64,000 nucleotides of DNA, taken from assembly GCA_003134785.1 (NCBI GenBank), contig PLCN01000020.1, forward strand, positions 124,001 through 188,000. The letters are read 5' to 3'. Origin of the DNA: Spartobacteria bacterium. GTDB taxonomy: Bacteria; Verrucomicrobiota; Verrucomicrobiia; Chthoniobacterales; UBA10450. Made by a program: the position numbers and the translations under genes. Below the pieces are notes generated by a model. It made no database searches. It saw only the letters and a program-made list of their open reading frames with translations, and was not told the origin of the DNA. Positions 13,149-18,109 of this stretch are shown here, one piece after another. Numbering within the stretch: the first letter of the stretch is position 1; each line of letters begins with the position of its first letter.

Positions 13149-15602
13149 TTAGTTGCCTAACGAGAAATCGGCGCGGTCGCGCGAAAGGTTTGGGTTGTAA
13201 TACGGATCGCGTTCGAGCACCTCGGGCCAGCGTTCGCGTATCACCTCGGTCTCGAGTGGTTCCACCGTTCGCCGCCGCGTGCCGGATTCGTGGTGATACA
13301 GCTTCGCGAACGGAGTGTAAACAATGAGATAACCAGCGCGCCGCATCTTGAGACAGAGATCGACGTCATTAAAGGTAACCGGCAGGCGCTCCTCATCGAA
13401 TCCTCCCACCTCGTCGAACACATCGCGGCGCGTGAGCAAACACGCGCCGGTCACGGAGCTGTAATTGCGCGTCACTTGCAATTGCCGGCAAACGCCCGGC
13501 GCTTCCGCGGGCAACCCGCGAAAAGCGTGCTCTGCGATCCCGCCCACGCCCACGACAATACCCGCGTGCTGCACCGTATCATCTGGATAAAGCAGGCGCG
13601 CTCCCACCGCGCCCACCTCGGTCCGTTGCACATGCTCTGCCATCGTGGTGAGCCAATCGCCCTCAATCACTTCGGTGTCGTTATTCAAAAAGAGGAGCCA
13701 CGGGCTGTCGGTTTGCTCGACCGCGAAATTATTCACTGCGGAAAAATTGAAAGGGCCGCTGTAACGCAAAAGCCGGTGCTTGAACTGCGAGAAATACGCG
13801 CGCGCCTCCTCGGACTGGCTGTCGTTATCGACCACAACGATCTCATAGGGCGCATAACGGGTTTTGCTCGTCAGGCTCTCGAGACAGCGGGCCAGCAAAT
13901 CGACGCGGTCGCGCACGGGGATGATAATCGAAATCTTTTTCGCTTCCGCCAGCTCGCGCTTGATCCAGTAGGCGTGCGTGCGCCAGTCGATTGAGACATG
14001 CCCCGCCTGCTGCCGTCGTTCCAGGTGCGCTTCGAGCGCCAGGCGGCCGGTCTCGAGCGAGCCGGGCTTGCGCCGGATATTGTCCGCGGTGGAAGCGAGG
14101 CTGCGCCGCCAGTGATAAAGTACGCGCGGGATGTGATCGATTCGGTCAGTTCGTTCTGTCACGCGCAGAAAGAGATCGTAGTCCTGCGCGCCATCAAACT
14201 CCGAACGGAAACCACCCACCTCCCTGACCAGGTCGCGGCGAATGAGCGTGAAATGGCAAATGTAGTTGCATGAGAGAAAATAATCCGGAGACCAGTCCGG
14301 TTTGAAAATGGGCGAATCGAAGCCTGTCTCCGTCAGTTTGTCTTCATCCGAATAAATCAGGTCCGAGTCGGGATGCTCTTGCAGCCATTTCACGTTTTGA
14401 AAAAGCGCATCCGGTTCGAGCACATCGTCGTGATCGAGGAACGCCACCCAATCACCTTGCGCGAGCGCGAGGCCGCGATTTGAGGCGGCGGAAATCCCGC
14501 CTCTCTTGTCATCGCTCCCCAGAATGATGCGCGAATCCCGGGCCGCAAGTTCCTGCAAACATCGAAGTGTTTCCGGATCGGTCGAAGAATCATCGACCAG
14601 GATGTGCTCCCATTTTTCGTAAGTCTGGACGAGCACCGACTCGACGCACTCGGTCAGCCATGTCACCGGGGTATTGAAAACCGGTGTGATAATGCTGATG
14701 CAAGGTTGGTAGGAGAAAGCACGTCCTTGATCGCGCAAGGCACCAAGCTCGCCGCTCTGGGCGAGCCGCTTCTCGATCCACTTATGATATTCGCTGGGTG
14801 CGGCCACGCGAGACGACTCGTTAGGCTTGGGAAATCGCTTGCGCACTTCGCGCAGCAGTTTCTGCGGCAAACGGTAGGGCGCGAGCAGGACCTGGCCGAT
14901 CTTGCGTTCCGGCGATTTGCGGAGCGCCTGTTTTTCCTGCTTCAACTGCTTCAACTGGCGCTTAGCCTCTTTTAACTTCAGCAGTTTCTCTTCGAGCTTT
15001 GCGATATGGTGGTCCGCCGCTTCGAGCTCCGACATTCGCGTGCTCAGTGTCCGTTGCAATCCGCGCACATGCCGATGGAGCCGCGCGAAAGCGGATTCGA
15101 CCGCAGGAACGAGCGCCTCCTGCGAATCGCCTGCGTGACGCACCAACCGCAGCGCTGTCGGTTCGAAATCTCCCAAATCGCATTCGTAATCCGGCCGCAA
15201 ACCGAGACGACGGAATGATTCCACCAAATGTGGACGACGCTTCGAAATTTCCGCTCCGACTCCGGACACCAGCAGGATATCCCGGGCGCGGCCCGCGATT
15301 TCCTCCGCCGCGCGCTCGTCCTGAATTTTTTCCGGCGGATAAAACCAAACCGCGAGATCGGCCGGCGGCCCACTTCCATTCCGCGGAAGCGTGGACGCCA
15401 ATTCGTCGATGGAAGCGCAGATCGTCGCGCGCGCGCCAGCCTCCTCGAATTGCCGAGTCAACTCCTCCCGCTCCGGGCCGATGATCAAAAACGGGCCACG
15501 TCCGAATTTTTGCGCAACAAACTGCGCAAAATCCGAACGAACAGAATGGGGACGTGACCGCAACACAGGGACAGTATATTGATTGAAGCAGGGCGCAGGC
15601 AA
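13149..15602 (-). CDS. Two-domain family 2 glycosyltransferase (O-antigen/surface polysaccharide type)
   Basis: About 817 residues. Residues 1-170 look like a degenerate methyltransferase-like fold (GPFLIIGPEREELTRQFE). A coiled coil follows at about 185-235 (LEEKLLKLKEAKRQLKQ). The first GT2 domain starts near 300 (CISIITPVFNTP, HILVDDSSTD, WVAFLDHDDVLEPDAL with the DxD-type motif). The second starts near 555 (KISIIIPVRDRVD, EIVVVDNDSQ, LLFLNNDTEVI). Such tandem enzymes add two sugars to surface glycans from the cytoplasmic side. There is no ATG at the 5' end: the frame opens at a TTG (15602), with an in-frame GTG at 15566, so the true start is uncertain. It is divergent from the LpxL-WaaF fusion and leads the cupin-methyltransferase group. 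Confidence 0.85.
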   Translation of the reverse strand: MPAPCFNQYTVPVLRSRPHSVRSDFAQFVAQKFGRGPFLIIGPEREELTRQFEEAGARATICASIDELASTLPRNGSGPPADLAVWFYPPEKIQDERAAEEIAGRARDILLVSGVGAEISKRRPHLVESFRRLGLRPDYECDLGDFEPTALRLVRHAGDSQEALVPAVESAFARLHRHVRGLQRTLSTRMSELEAADHHIAKLEEKLLKLKEAKRQLKQLKQEKQALRKSPERKIGQVLLAPYRLPQKLLREVRKRFPKPNESSRVAAPSEYHKWIEKRLAQSGELGALRDQGRAFSYQPCISIITPVFNTPVTWLTECVESVLVQTYEKWEHILVDDSSTDPETLRCLQELAARDSRIILGSDDKRGGISAASNRGLALAQGDWVAFLDHDDVLEPDALFQNVKWLQEHPDSDLIYSDEDKLTETGFDSPIFKPDWSPDYFLSCNYICHFTLIRRDLVREVGGFRSEFDGAQDYDLFLRVTERTDRIDHIPRVLYHWRRSLASTADNIRRKPGSLETGRLALEAHLERRQQAGHVSIDWRTHAYWIKRELAEAKKISIIIPVRDRVDLLARCLESLTSKTRYAPYEIVVVDNDSQSEEARAYFSQFKHRLLRYSGPFNFSAVNNFAVEQTDSPWLLFLNNDTEVIEGDWLTTMAEHVQRTEVGAVGARLLYPDDTVQHAGIVVGVGGIAEHAFRGLPAEAPGVCRQLQVTRNYSSVTGACLLTRRDVFDEVGGFDEERLPVTFNDVDLCLKMRRAGYLIVYTPFAKLYHHESGTRRRTVEPLETEVIRERWPEVLERDPYYNPNLSRDRADFSLGN

Positions 15603-15650: not shown

Positions 15651-17594
15651 ATGCTCGATTTCAGCATCTACCTTTTGTATCGCGCGGGCACGGCGATCAT
15701 GAGCGCATTTCCGGTGCGCGTCCTGTTCGCGCTCGGAAATTTCCTGGGTTTCGCCGCGTGGCTGTTGCTCCCCCAGTATCGCCGACTCGCCCGGCGTAAT
15801 CTTGAGATCGCCTTCGGGAAAGAAAAATCGCCGGCCGAATTGCGACGGATTGTCCGCCGCCACTTCCAAAATCTCAGCGCCAATTTGATTTGCGGCGTCA
15901 AGATGGGATCGATGCCGCCGGAAAAACTGGCGCGATATGTCGAAACGGAAAATCTAGAGGCGGTCCATCGCGAGCTGCGCGCGGGCCAGCCCGTCATCCT
16001 GCTCTTGAGCCATATCGGAAACTGGGAATTGTTTGCGCAGCTGGTGCCGCACTATGCCGATTACGCAAGGATCGGAACGGTCTATCAAAAACTCGCAAAC
16101 CGGTACATCGACCAGGACGTAAGTCGAAAACGAGCGGCGGCCGGCGCCGAGCTCTTCGATCGCGGCGAAGGCTTTCACAAGCCAATCGAATTGCTTCGTT
16201 CCGGTGGGCTCATTGGAATTCTGGGCGATCAGCACGCGGGCGACCACGGTCTCTGGACGCCATTTTTCGGCCGGCTCGCCTCGACTTCACCGCTCTCCGG
16301 TCTGCTGGCAAAGAGAACCGGCGCGACGGTAATCGCGGCGGCGGTTCATACCGAGGGCCCGGCGCGCTGGCGGATGGTTTTTACTCCACGCATCGATTCG
16401 CCCGGCGACTCCGTGAACGCCATTACCGCGAAAGCGAACGAGCAGATCGAGCAGCAGATTCGGCGGACGCCCGAGGATTGGTTGTGGGTACACAATCGTT
16501 GGAAGACTCCGAAGCCCTTCTTTCTTCTGACGCATTACAAGCGCGGTGTTTACGTTCCGCCCGAAACGCATGACTTGAAGCCATTCCGGATTCTGATCCG
16601 TAGTTCAAACTGGCTGGGCGACAGCATCATTAGCATGCCCGCAGTGCGCGCGATCAAGGCGGGACGTCCAGACGCGCATATCACCATTGCCGCCCCGGAG
16701 AAATTCGTCGCCGTCTGGAAACTCCTGCCTGAAGTTGACGAGATCATCGGCCTAACGAGTGGTTCGCTTCTCCGCGCCGTCCGGTTGATTCGGCGGCAAC
16801 CACGCTTCGATGTCGCCGTGCTTTTTCCGAATTCGTTGCGCACCGCTTTGGAAGTTTGGCTCGCGGGGATCCCGCGCCGAGTCGCTTATCGCGGTCATCA
16901 TCGCCGGTGGCTCGTCAATCAGATTATTGCCGAGCCATTGAAGCGCGGCCCGATCGAGCATCAGGTTTACCGGTATCTTCAAATCGCGCGCGAATTGGGC
17001 GGACCCGCGGATTCCCCGCCAGCTCGCATGTTTTTGCCCCGCGCGAAACGCAATGGCGCAACCGCGAAGATCGCCCTTTGCCCGGGCGCCGAATACGGTC
17101 CGGCGAAGCGATGGCTCCCGGAGCGCTTTGCCGAGGTCGCTCTGACTGTTTCAGGTCAGAGACCAGTTCAATGGATTCTGTTCGGCACCTCCGCTGATAA
17201 GGAGACCGGGGCGCTGATCGAAGCCGCGGTTGGCGTCAACTGCATCAATCGTATCGGTCAAACGACGCTCCCGGAGCTTATCAACGAGCTAAGCGAGTGC
17301 GCCGTGCTGCTCACGAATGACACGGGGACGATGCATCTCGCCACGATCCTTGGTGTTCCCGTCGTCGCTGTCTTCGGCTCGACCGAACCTCGTCTCACCG
17401 GTCCGCTCGGAACCGGCCACCGCGTAATTCGCCACCAGGTTGAATGCAGTCCGTGTTTCCTGCGCAAATGCCCGATCGATTTCCGCTGCATGAAAGCGGC
17501 CACTGTCGATGAAGTCGCGGATTCAGTTTCCTCGCTGCTGAAAAGGTGGGAAGCCCCTCTCGACCGCAGCGATCCCGCGCATTCCAACAACTGA
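15651..17594 (+). CDS. Fusion of LpxL-like lipid A acyltransferase and WaaF-like heptosyltransferase
   Basis: 647 residues. Residues 1-300 match lysophospholipid/lipid A acyltransferases: an N-terminal membrane segment (ALGNFLGFAAWLLL), YRRLARRNLEIAFG, the HX4E catalytic motif in LSHIGNWELFAQL, and GDQHAGDHGLW. Residues about 318-630 are a family 9 glycosyltransferase: RILIRSSNWLGDSIISMPAV, IALCPGAEYGPAKRW, LLTNDTGTMHLATILGVP and FGSTEPRLTGP. The acyltransferase would add secondary acyl chains to lipid A and the heptosyltransferase would extend the inner core, both at the cytoplasmic face of the inner membrane. These are usually separate genes; here they are one open frame with no frameshift or internal stop. 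Confidence 0.9.
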   Translation: MLDFSIYLLYRAGTAIMSAFPVRVLFALGNFLGFAAWLLLPQYRRLARRNLEIAFGKEKSPAELRRIVRRHFQNLSANLICGVKMGSMPPEKLARYVETENLEAVHRELRAGQPVILLLSHIGNWELFAQLVPHYADYARIGTVYQKLANRYIDQDVSRKRAAAGAELFDRGEGFHKPIELLRSGGLIGILGDQHAGDHGLWTPFFGRLASTSPLSGLLAKRTGATVIAAAVHTEGPARWRMVFTPRIDSPGDSVNAITAKANEQIEQQIRRTPEDWLWVHNRWKTPKPFFLLTHYKRGVYVPPETHDLKPFRILIRSSNWLGDSIISMPAVRAIKAGRPDAHITIAAPEKFVAVWKLLPEVDEIIGLTSGSLLRAVRLIRRQPRFDVAVLFPNSLRTALEVWLAGIPRRVAYRGHHRRWLVNQIIAEPLKRGPIEHQVYRYLQIARELGGPADSPPARMFLPRAKRNGATAKIALCPGAEYGPAKRWLPERFAEVALTVSGQRPVQWILFGTSADKETGALIEAAVGVNCINRIGQTTLPELINELSECAVLLTNDTGTMHLATILGVPVVAVFGSTEPRLTGPLGTGHRVIRHQVECSPCFLRKCPIDFRCMKAATVDEVADSVSSLLKRWEAPLDRSDPAHSNN

Positions 17595-17664: not shown

Positions 17665-17684
17665 TGCGAAATGATAGTTTCGCA
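17665..17684 (+). promoter_or_regulatory. Small hairpin overlapping a start codon
   Basis: TGCGAAA (17665-17671) and TTTCGCA (17678-17684) are perfect 7-base inverted repeats around a 6-base loop. The last base is the A of the thioesterase ATG, so the structure would cover the initiation region. No ribosome-binding site is evident upstream. Regulation of translation is only a possibility. Confidence 0.35.
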
Positions 17685-18109
17685 TGTTGAACGACAGCGC
17701 GCCTCGCATCCGCACCGACGTGCAGGTGATGTTCTTCGATACGGATTGCGCGGCCGTAGTGCACAACATCGCCTACCTGCGCTTCATCGAAATCGCGCGA
17801 ACGCATCTCGCCGAGCAGCTTGGGCTCGGCCTCGCCCAGATGGCCGACAACCAGAAGTATCCGGTGGTCGTGCGGACCGAAATCGATTACCGGCGCGCGG
17901 CCAAGCTGGGCGATCGGCTGGTGATCGAAGGCTGGCTCGACCAACTCGAGCGAGTTCGATTTTGGTGCGCCTTTCGAGTCACCCGCCCGGCTGATGAAAC
18001 GCTGATCGCGGAATGCCGCCAGATGCTCGCGATCATTCAGATGCCCGAGGCAAAGTTGCTTCGCGTCCCGGACGAATGGGATCGATATCGCATTCCGGAC
18101 GGAGGATGA
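17684..18109 (+). CDS. Acyl-CoA thioesterase, 4HBT/YbgC-type hotdog fold
   Basis: 141 residues, the standard size for the family. The motif VQVMFFDTDCAAVVHNIAYL carries the conserved Asp and the His/Asn-Tyr segment of YbgC-like 4-hydroxybenzoyl-CoA thioesterases; IDYRRAAKLGDRLVIEGWL follows as the second strand block. It would hydrolyse acyl-CoA or acyl-ACP thioesters in the cytoplasm. YbgC often sits with the Tol-Pal envelope genes; here its neighbours are lipid A and glycan genes, so a role in acyl supply or phospholipid turnover is plausible. A leading ATG-proximal hairpin may limit translation. Confidence 0.88.
   Translation: MLNDSAPRIRTDVQVMFFDTDCAAVVHNIAYLRFIEIARTHLAEQLGLGLAQMADNQKYPVVVRTEIDYRRAAKLGDRLVIEGWLDQLERVRFWCAFRVTRPADETLIAECRQMLAIIQMPEAKLLRVPDEWDRYRIPDGG

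Follow-up and report, generated by a model that had tools for sequence, protein, structure and literature searches.

The window, by which we mean the whole stretch of DNA that was analysed (64,000 nucleotides), carries on its forward strand an lpxL-waaF fusion gene encoding a protein of 647 aa. The initial annotation had described two enzymes in one uninterrupted frame, and a frame running from ATG to TGA does lie exactly at 15651..17594 (+). Its first part is an LpxL/HtrB-family acyltransferase domain (aa 7-286, 15669..16508, +; PF03279, 2.9e-54) with the acyltransferase HxxxxE motif (H121 and E126; 16011..16028, +), which is invariant in 102/102 fused proteins. A linker (aa 287-312, 16509..16586, +), predicted by the AlphaFold2 model to be ordered (pLDDT ~88-92), leads to a heptosyltransferase II (WaaF/RfaF, GT9) domain at aa 313-630 (16587..17540, +; TIGR02195, 2.8e-56). 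Alignment places D324 (16620..16622, +) as the equivalent of the catalytic D13 of WaaC/WaaF, K486 (17106..17108, +) as the equivalent of K192 of WaaC, and DTGTMH (D557-H562; 17319..17336, +) as the GT9 signature D(T/S)(G/A)xxH. D324, K486, D557 and H562 thus match D13, K192, D261 and H266; the roles of D13, K192 and H266 and the signature itself are taken from an excerpt of PMC3559599.

The assignment of the two halves to an LpxL acyltransferase and a WaaF-type heptosyltransferase holds, since PF03279 (184.7 bits, Pfam cut-off 22.3), PF01075 (124.9 bits, Pfam cut-off 22) and the NCBIfam equivalog model TIGR02195 (191.1 against 134.6 bits) are all above their cut-offs. With the LpxL half, none of the LpxL-type NCBIfam models listed reaches its curated cut-off, TIGR02207 for example giving 112.0 against 297.8 bits. 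This half is 24-26% identical to E. coli LpxL/LpxM; the GT9 half has 32% identity to E. coli WaaF. When solved structures were searched by sequence, the GT9 half was nearest to E. coli WaaF (1psw, 4.2e-36) and the LpxL half to PatA and then to LpxM. An AlphaFold2 model of the whole fusion, built from 57 aligned relatives (pLDDT 89.6, pTM 0.87), superimposes on 1psw with Z 31.1 (rmsd 2.7, 303 aligned) and on A. baumannii LpxM, 5kn7, with Z 28.2 (rmsd 2.4, 250 aligned), and Foldseek agrees with both fold assignments. With the LpxL/HtrB family (PF03279; E. coli LpxL, A. baumannii LpxM 5kn7) the protein therefore shares the model fold, the HxxxxE motif and the conserved R and D, but it is only about 24% identical to E. 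coli LpxL and bears a second enzyme at its C-terminus. With WaaF/RfaF (TIGR02195, GT9; 1psw) it shares a score over the equivalog cut-off and the retained D13/K/D/H equivalents, whereas WaaF is a separate protein and the version in the window is fused behind LpxL. The LpxL half would be anchored in the membrane by its N-terminal helices.

Two neighbouring genes are not part of the enzyme. Downstream lies a YbgC/4HBT-type thioesterase recognized by domain models (17684..18109, +), which neighbours the fusion in 43 of the best 80 of 435 relatives, many of these loci being too short to show it. A divergent two-domain GT2 glycosyltransferase, identified with Pfam (13149..15602, -), occupies the other side, and such a gene is found nearby in 38 of the best 80 of 435 relatives.

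The joined frame across the class

The phylum sample comprised 387 genomes, 126 of which, including that of the window, belong to the same class; below, G denotes a genome, L a locus or protein, f a family and g a genus of this sample. The initial annotation had proposed a search for the same fusion across Verrucomicrobiota, and it was found intact in 48 of the 126 sampled genomes of the class, from 32 genera, a count that includes G280, with its frame break, and G369, whose copy is divided by contig ends. A decayed GT9 half characterizes genus g11 (23/126); LpxL bears a C-terminal tail of about 100-190 aa in 22/126 and stands alone in 24/126, while seven genomes (f9, f12) have a GT9 gene unfused to LpxL and two are without LpxL. 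No fusion from outside the class was among the matches listed from the phylum sample. The genome of the window (G000; 4.39 Mb, 97% complete) has a single full-length fusion match, the others spanning one half only. Its two additional PF03279 matches (G000:C16:21296-22129 and G000:C11:107428-108186) are possibly a second late acyltransferase. In all four g16 genomes a PF03279 match was absent.

The joined frame could in principle have been produced by faulty assembly or sequencing, the objection foreseen in the initial annotation. We consider this practically negligible, given that both halves lie in one frame in 74 of the best 80 of 435 confirmed stretches (named genome contigs), and that four single-contig genomes (G018, G036, G057 and G088) share it. 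Of the remaining six loci a contig end truncates five, and in the sixth, L051, the frame is broken close to its end. Among the loci with the joined frame is that of an isolate, Chthoniobacter flavus Ellin428 (L060). It is a true fusion of two known enzyme families. The intact fusion is kept, together with WaaA, LpxK and HldA, by G036, a strongly reduced single-contig genome of 0.9 Mb from the same order. Frame breaks within or between the halves were seen in L102 (G280), L051 and L157 (G024) and are either sequencing errors or natural splits.

Judged by titles and abstracts, we did not find a description of an LpxL-WaaF fusion in the literature. Another fusion of lipid A-related genes, LpxC-FabZ, is described for Bacteroidetes, Chlorobi and Verrucomicrobia in an excerpt of PMC3087551; it is alike in kind, but joins other enzymes that act at other steps of the pathway. 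Two long GT9 frames, L127 (f12) and L128 (f9), were considered as further fusions and rejected, their N-terminal parts matching no Pfam family. As these parts resemble Arg/Pro-rich read-through of a GC-rich frame, both genes were taken as GT9 unfused to LpxL.

The region between the halves (aa 284-318) measures 31-42 residues across 102 fusions, 56 of which have exactly 37. We asked whether the GT9 half could have a start of its own here. In-frame start codons do occur in the region (ATG 29, GTG 34, TTG 46; n=102 fusions), no start codon is conserved among the 102, and an internal start may be used in some genomes.

Active sites and constraint in the two halves

Both active sites had been described as intact, and in the protein of the window H121/E126/R161/D193 and D324/K486/D557/H562 are indeed all present. 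The four residues of the LpxL half are invariant in the 102 full-length fused proteins. In a wider check of the class they were found in 111/117 rows; two of the six others are partial matches and four carry conservative changes (HDRD or HEKD). Among the same 102 proteins the equivalent of D13 is an Asp in 91 cases, a Glu in 10 and a gap in one, that of D261 is kept in 102/102, and those of K192 and H266 are each kept in 92/102, all ten deviants at the K and H positions being g11 proteins of family f8. The whole D/K/D/H set was seen in 46/48 intact genomes, the second pieces of G280 and G369 having been left out.

The GT9 half of g11 is degenerate. The D13 equivalent is E in 20 and A in two of the 22 genomes checked out of 23 (G024, whose halves lie in two overlapping frames, was left out of this check), and in the 17 genomes in which the K and H positions were reached they are never K or H. 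It had been stated beforehand that the functional reading would fail if one half were inactive in all homologues: for the class as a whole this is not what is seen, but in g11 it does describe the GT9 half, which has lost D13 in 22/22 genomes checked. This pseudo-heptosyltransferase attached to LpxL was recorded at L103-L112, L158, L164, L166, L168, L261-L265 and L267-L269.

Over 13 pairs of sequences dN/dS ranged from 0.08 to 0.15 in the LpxL half and from 0.08 to 0.38 in the GT9 half. The five well-diverged intact pairs gave 0.08-0.15 and 0.09-0.17, respectively, and the GT9 half was less constrained in two close intact pairs (0.38 for L034/L042 and 0.20 for L025/L035). The degenerate GT9 half of g11 is under purifying selection as well (0.08-0.22 in six pairs, all from L103-L112).

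Heptose kinase and the decay of the GT9 half

TIGR02198 was used to look for the heptose kinase HldA/HldE in each of the 126 genomes of the class, a score of at least 300 bits being required for a call; the curated cut-off of 345 is passed in only 2/26, 7/80 and 1/24 genomes, and the strongest match under 300 has 144 bits. The HldA-type match in the genome of the window, at 332 bits, is under that cut-off too, and TIGR02198 also matches in Synechococcus and Deinobacterium below it. Called in this way, HldA accompanies the intact fusion in 48/48 genomes and the unfused GT9 in 7/7, and it is present in 19/23 genomes of g11, 3/22 with an LpxL tail, 3/24 with a standalone LpxL and 0/2 where LpxL is absent. 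Since the kinase is found in 48/48 genomes with the intact fusion versus 6/46 with a tail or a standalone LpxL, the GT9 half is most likely a working heptosyltransferase II, with a tendency to decay in lineages that lose heptose. Counted by genus the contrast is 32/32 versus 6/26 (Fisher p 1.2e-10, a value that ignores shared descent), and the losses of HldA are spread over several families. Within genus g15 alone, G039 has the fusion and HldA, G048 has a standalone LpxL and is without HldA, and G108 has neither fusion nor HldA; in G140, G045, G119 and G381, all without HldA, no GT9 match was present. There are contrary cases in both directions: HldA persists in G268, G363, G080, G099, G271 and G339, none of which has an intact fused GT9, as it does in most genomes of g11, and a single GT9 gene is left in each of G251, G307, G240, G316 and G378, which lack HldA. 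The lone GT9 gene of the latter five f8 genomes (L215 and L217-L220, from G316, G307, G240, G378 and G251) groups with the decayed g11 half, and perhaps uses another sugar.

We regard this agreement between the heptose kinase and the condition of the GT9 half as the most useful result. It provides a natural series in which one half of a fused LPS enzyme goes from intact through dead and truncated to absent, and which largely follows the presence or absence of the kinase. If the reading is right, one gene would predict the composition of the LPS core across a large and poorly studied class.

The truncated members of this series were compared with GT9 by hhalign as groups and not as single proteins. 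Three groups of tails match the GT9 acceptor lobe, each from near its start: 13 tails of f8 (93%, E 3.6e-7), three tails of g11 (97.6%), and one f20 tail together with one f21 tail (96.5%). Five LpxL tails from f10 (g23/g17), also counted as tails, gave no GT9 match (hhalign probability 0.1%), and against the GT9 profile the tails of G080 and G342 score 25 and 30 bits. An apparent remnant of the acceptor lobe was noted in L122, L139, L149-L156, L159, L161 and L167 (f8), L191 and L193; the heptose kinase is absent in 13/15 genomes with these remnants.

The LpxL tree (102 rows; genomes classified later were left out) places the fusion lineage, with its decayed and truncated members and five standalone proteins, apart from canonical LpxL and E. 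coli LpxL/LpxM (95/94), the 15 rows of g11 forming one clade (100/100). The states require 10 changes on this tree versus 52 when shuffled. The simplest reading is a single fusion, probably at an early stage of the class, after which some lineages lost the GT9 half and others exchanged the gene for a canonical LpxL; the order and number of these events are inferred. Splits or more than one fusion are also possible, because the intact fusion L126 (G295) lies outside the fusion clade of the LpxL tree, with support and on a long branch, and because the fused halves are interspersed in the GT9 tree with unfused WaaF-type genes of f8, f9 and f12. The unfused genes of five f8 genomes stand there beside the decayed g11 half (100/99). 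Three true fusions (L132, L204 and L207) are labelled "alone" in the GT9 tree, and its count of label changes was not used.

A GH20 protein of g11 matches 6je8 over 467 residues with 944 bits. This entry we take to be from A. muciniphila. Genus g11 is accordingly probably Akkermansia, an identification that depends on the origin of 6je8; sialidase searches gave no name for the genus, and no paper on 6JE8 came up in the literature. According to excerpts of PMC13135019 and PMC12527988, the inner core of the A. muciniphila LOS, or an oligosaccharide described from it, has one heptose, and in one of these two excerpts the lipid A is mainly tetra-acylated. If g11 is Akkermansia, a loss of heptose II would fit the dead WaaF half. 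The A. muciniphila gene JFJHEM_01585 codes, according to the excerpt of PMC12527988, for an LpxL-like acyltransferase 23.7% identical to LpxL; the LpxL half of the g11 fusion L104 has 23.3% identity to E. coli LpxL, and the two would be the same gene. The words "fusion", "fused" and "heptosyl" are all absent from the main text of PMC12527988. Tentatively, and with somewhat less than even confidence, we suggest that in g11 the acyltransferase has become permanently joined to a pseudo-heptosyltransferase which serves as a binding or regulatory module, that the death of this half explains the single-heptose core, and that the neighbouring acceptor-lobe remnants, mostly without the kinase, represent later stages. 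If so, it would help to explain the unusual LOS of the gut bacterium Akkermansia, with its one heptose and few acyl chains.

Place in the pathway and proposed role

In E. coli LpxL acts on Kdo2-lipid IVA, WaaC adds heptose I and WaaF then adds heptose II. The initial annotation had regarded the fused activities as two consecutive steps. This does not stand: the transfer of heptose I intervenes, the fused half is WaaF-type, and the genome of the window has a separate WaaC-like gene. In the GT9 tree the fused halves group with E. coli WaaF with moderate support (82/75). Two further GT9 genes of this genome, L005 and L003, cluster with WaaC (98/91, on long branches) and with WaaQ (98/90), respectively. 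NCBIfam ranks L005 and L003 as the tree does, both under the cut-off of their best model, which for L005 is heptosyltransferase I. As L005 groups with WaaC and the fused half is WaaF-type, a WaaC step probably separates the LpxL and WaaF steps. A Kdo transferase and LpxK were also found in the genome.

The steps would be truly consecutive if the GT9 half added the first and only heptose to Kdo. Although excerpts of PMC13135019 and PMC12527988 report one heptose in the A. muciniphila LOS, and some genomes with the fusion (G013, G175) have just three GT9 matches, we consider this improbable, as the half is WaaF-type by both model and tree and the same genome has GT9 genes grouping with WaaC and WaaQ. 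Moreover, the fused half of g11 is degenerate while HldA is kept in most of its genomes, so that a single heptose in g11 is unlikely to be added by the fused half.

We think it fairly probable that the fusion is a bifunctional LPS enzyme that combines LpxL-type acylation with WaaF-type transfer of heptose II; both activities and the membrane tethering we infer from the two families. The N-terminal half, membrane-anchored like its family, would move a secondary acyl chain onto the Kdo-lipid A precursor, the product of a separate WaaC-like gene would add heptose I between the two steps, and the C-terminal half would use ADP-heptose to add the second L,D-heptose of the inner core. Both halves would share one lipid as their substrate, at the inner face of the inner membrane, and for this reason the fusion would fix the heptosyltransferase beside the growing lipid and tie its amount to that of the acyltransferase. 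A strict hand-over of the product from one half to the other is unlikely because the transfer of heptose I must intervene. Lineages giving up heptose would for the most part let the GT9 half decay and keep the LpxL half.

Alternatively, the fusion could be neutral, a stop having been lost between neighbouring genes and the product being later cleaved or simply tolerated, with the two activities uncoupled. The standalone LpxL (24/126) and the GT9 unfused to LpxL (7/126) elsewhere in the class agree with this, as do the copies with a frame broken between or inside the halves (G280, G024 and L051). Nevertheless, the joined frame spans 32 genera, the region of aa 284-318 is confined to 31-42 residues (37 in 56/102) and predicted to be ordered, and the GT9 part of g11 stays attached and constrained in six pairs despite its lost catalytic residues, which makes neutrality rather unlikely.

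A further GT9 gene stands beside the fusion on the opposite strand in 17 of the 18 f10 genomes with the fusion (L113, L114, L129, L130, L133, L135-L138, L141-L143, L165, L257-L259 and L271), and the four of these f10 neighbours that were placed in the GT9 tree group with WaaC, together with one gene from f15. In the f9 genome G042 an unfused waaF directly adjoins lpxK (L125 and G042:C1:531486-532538).
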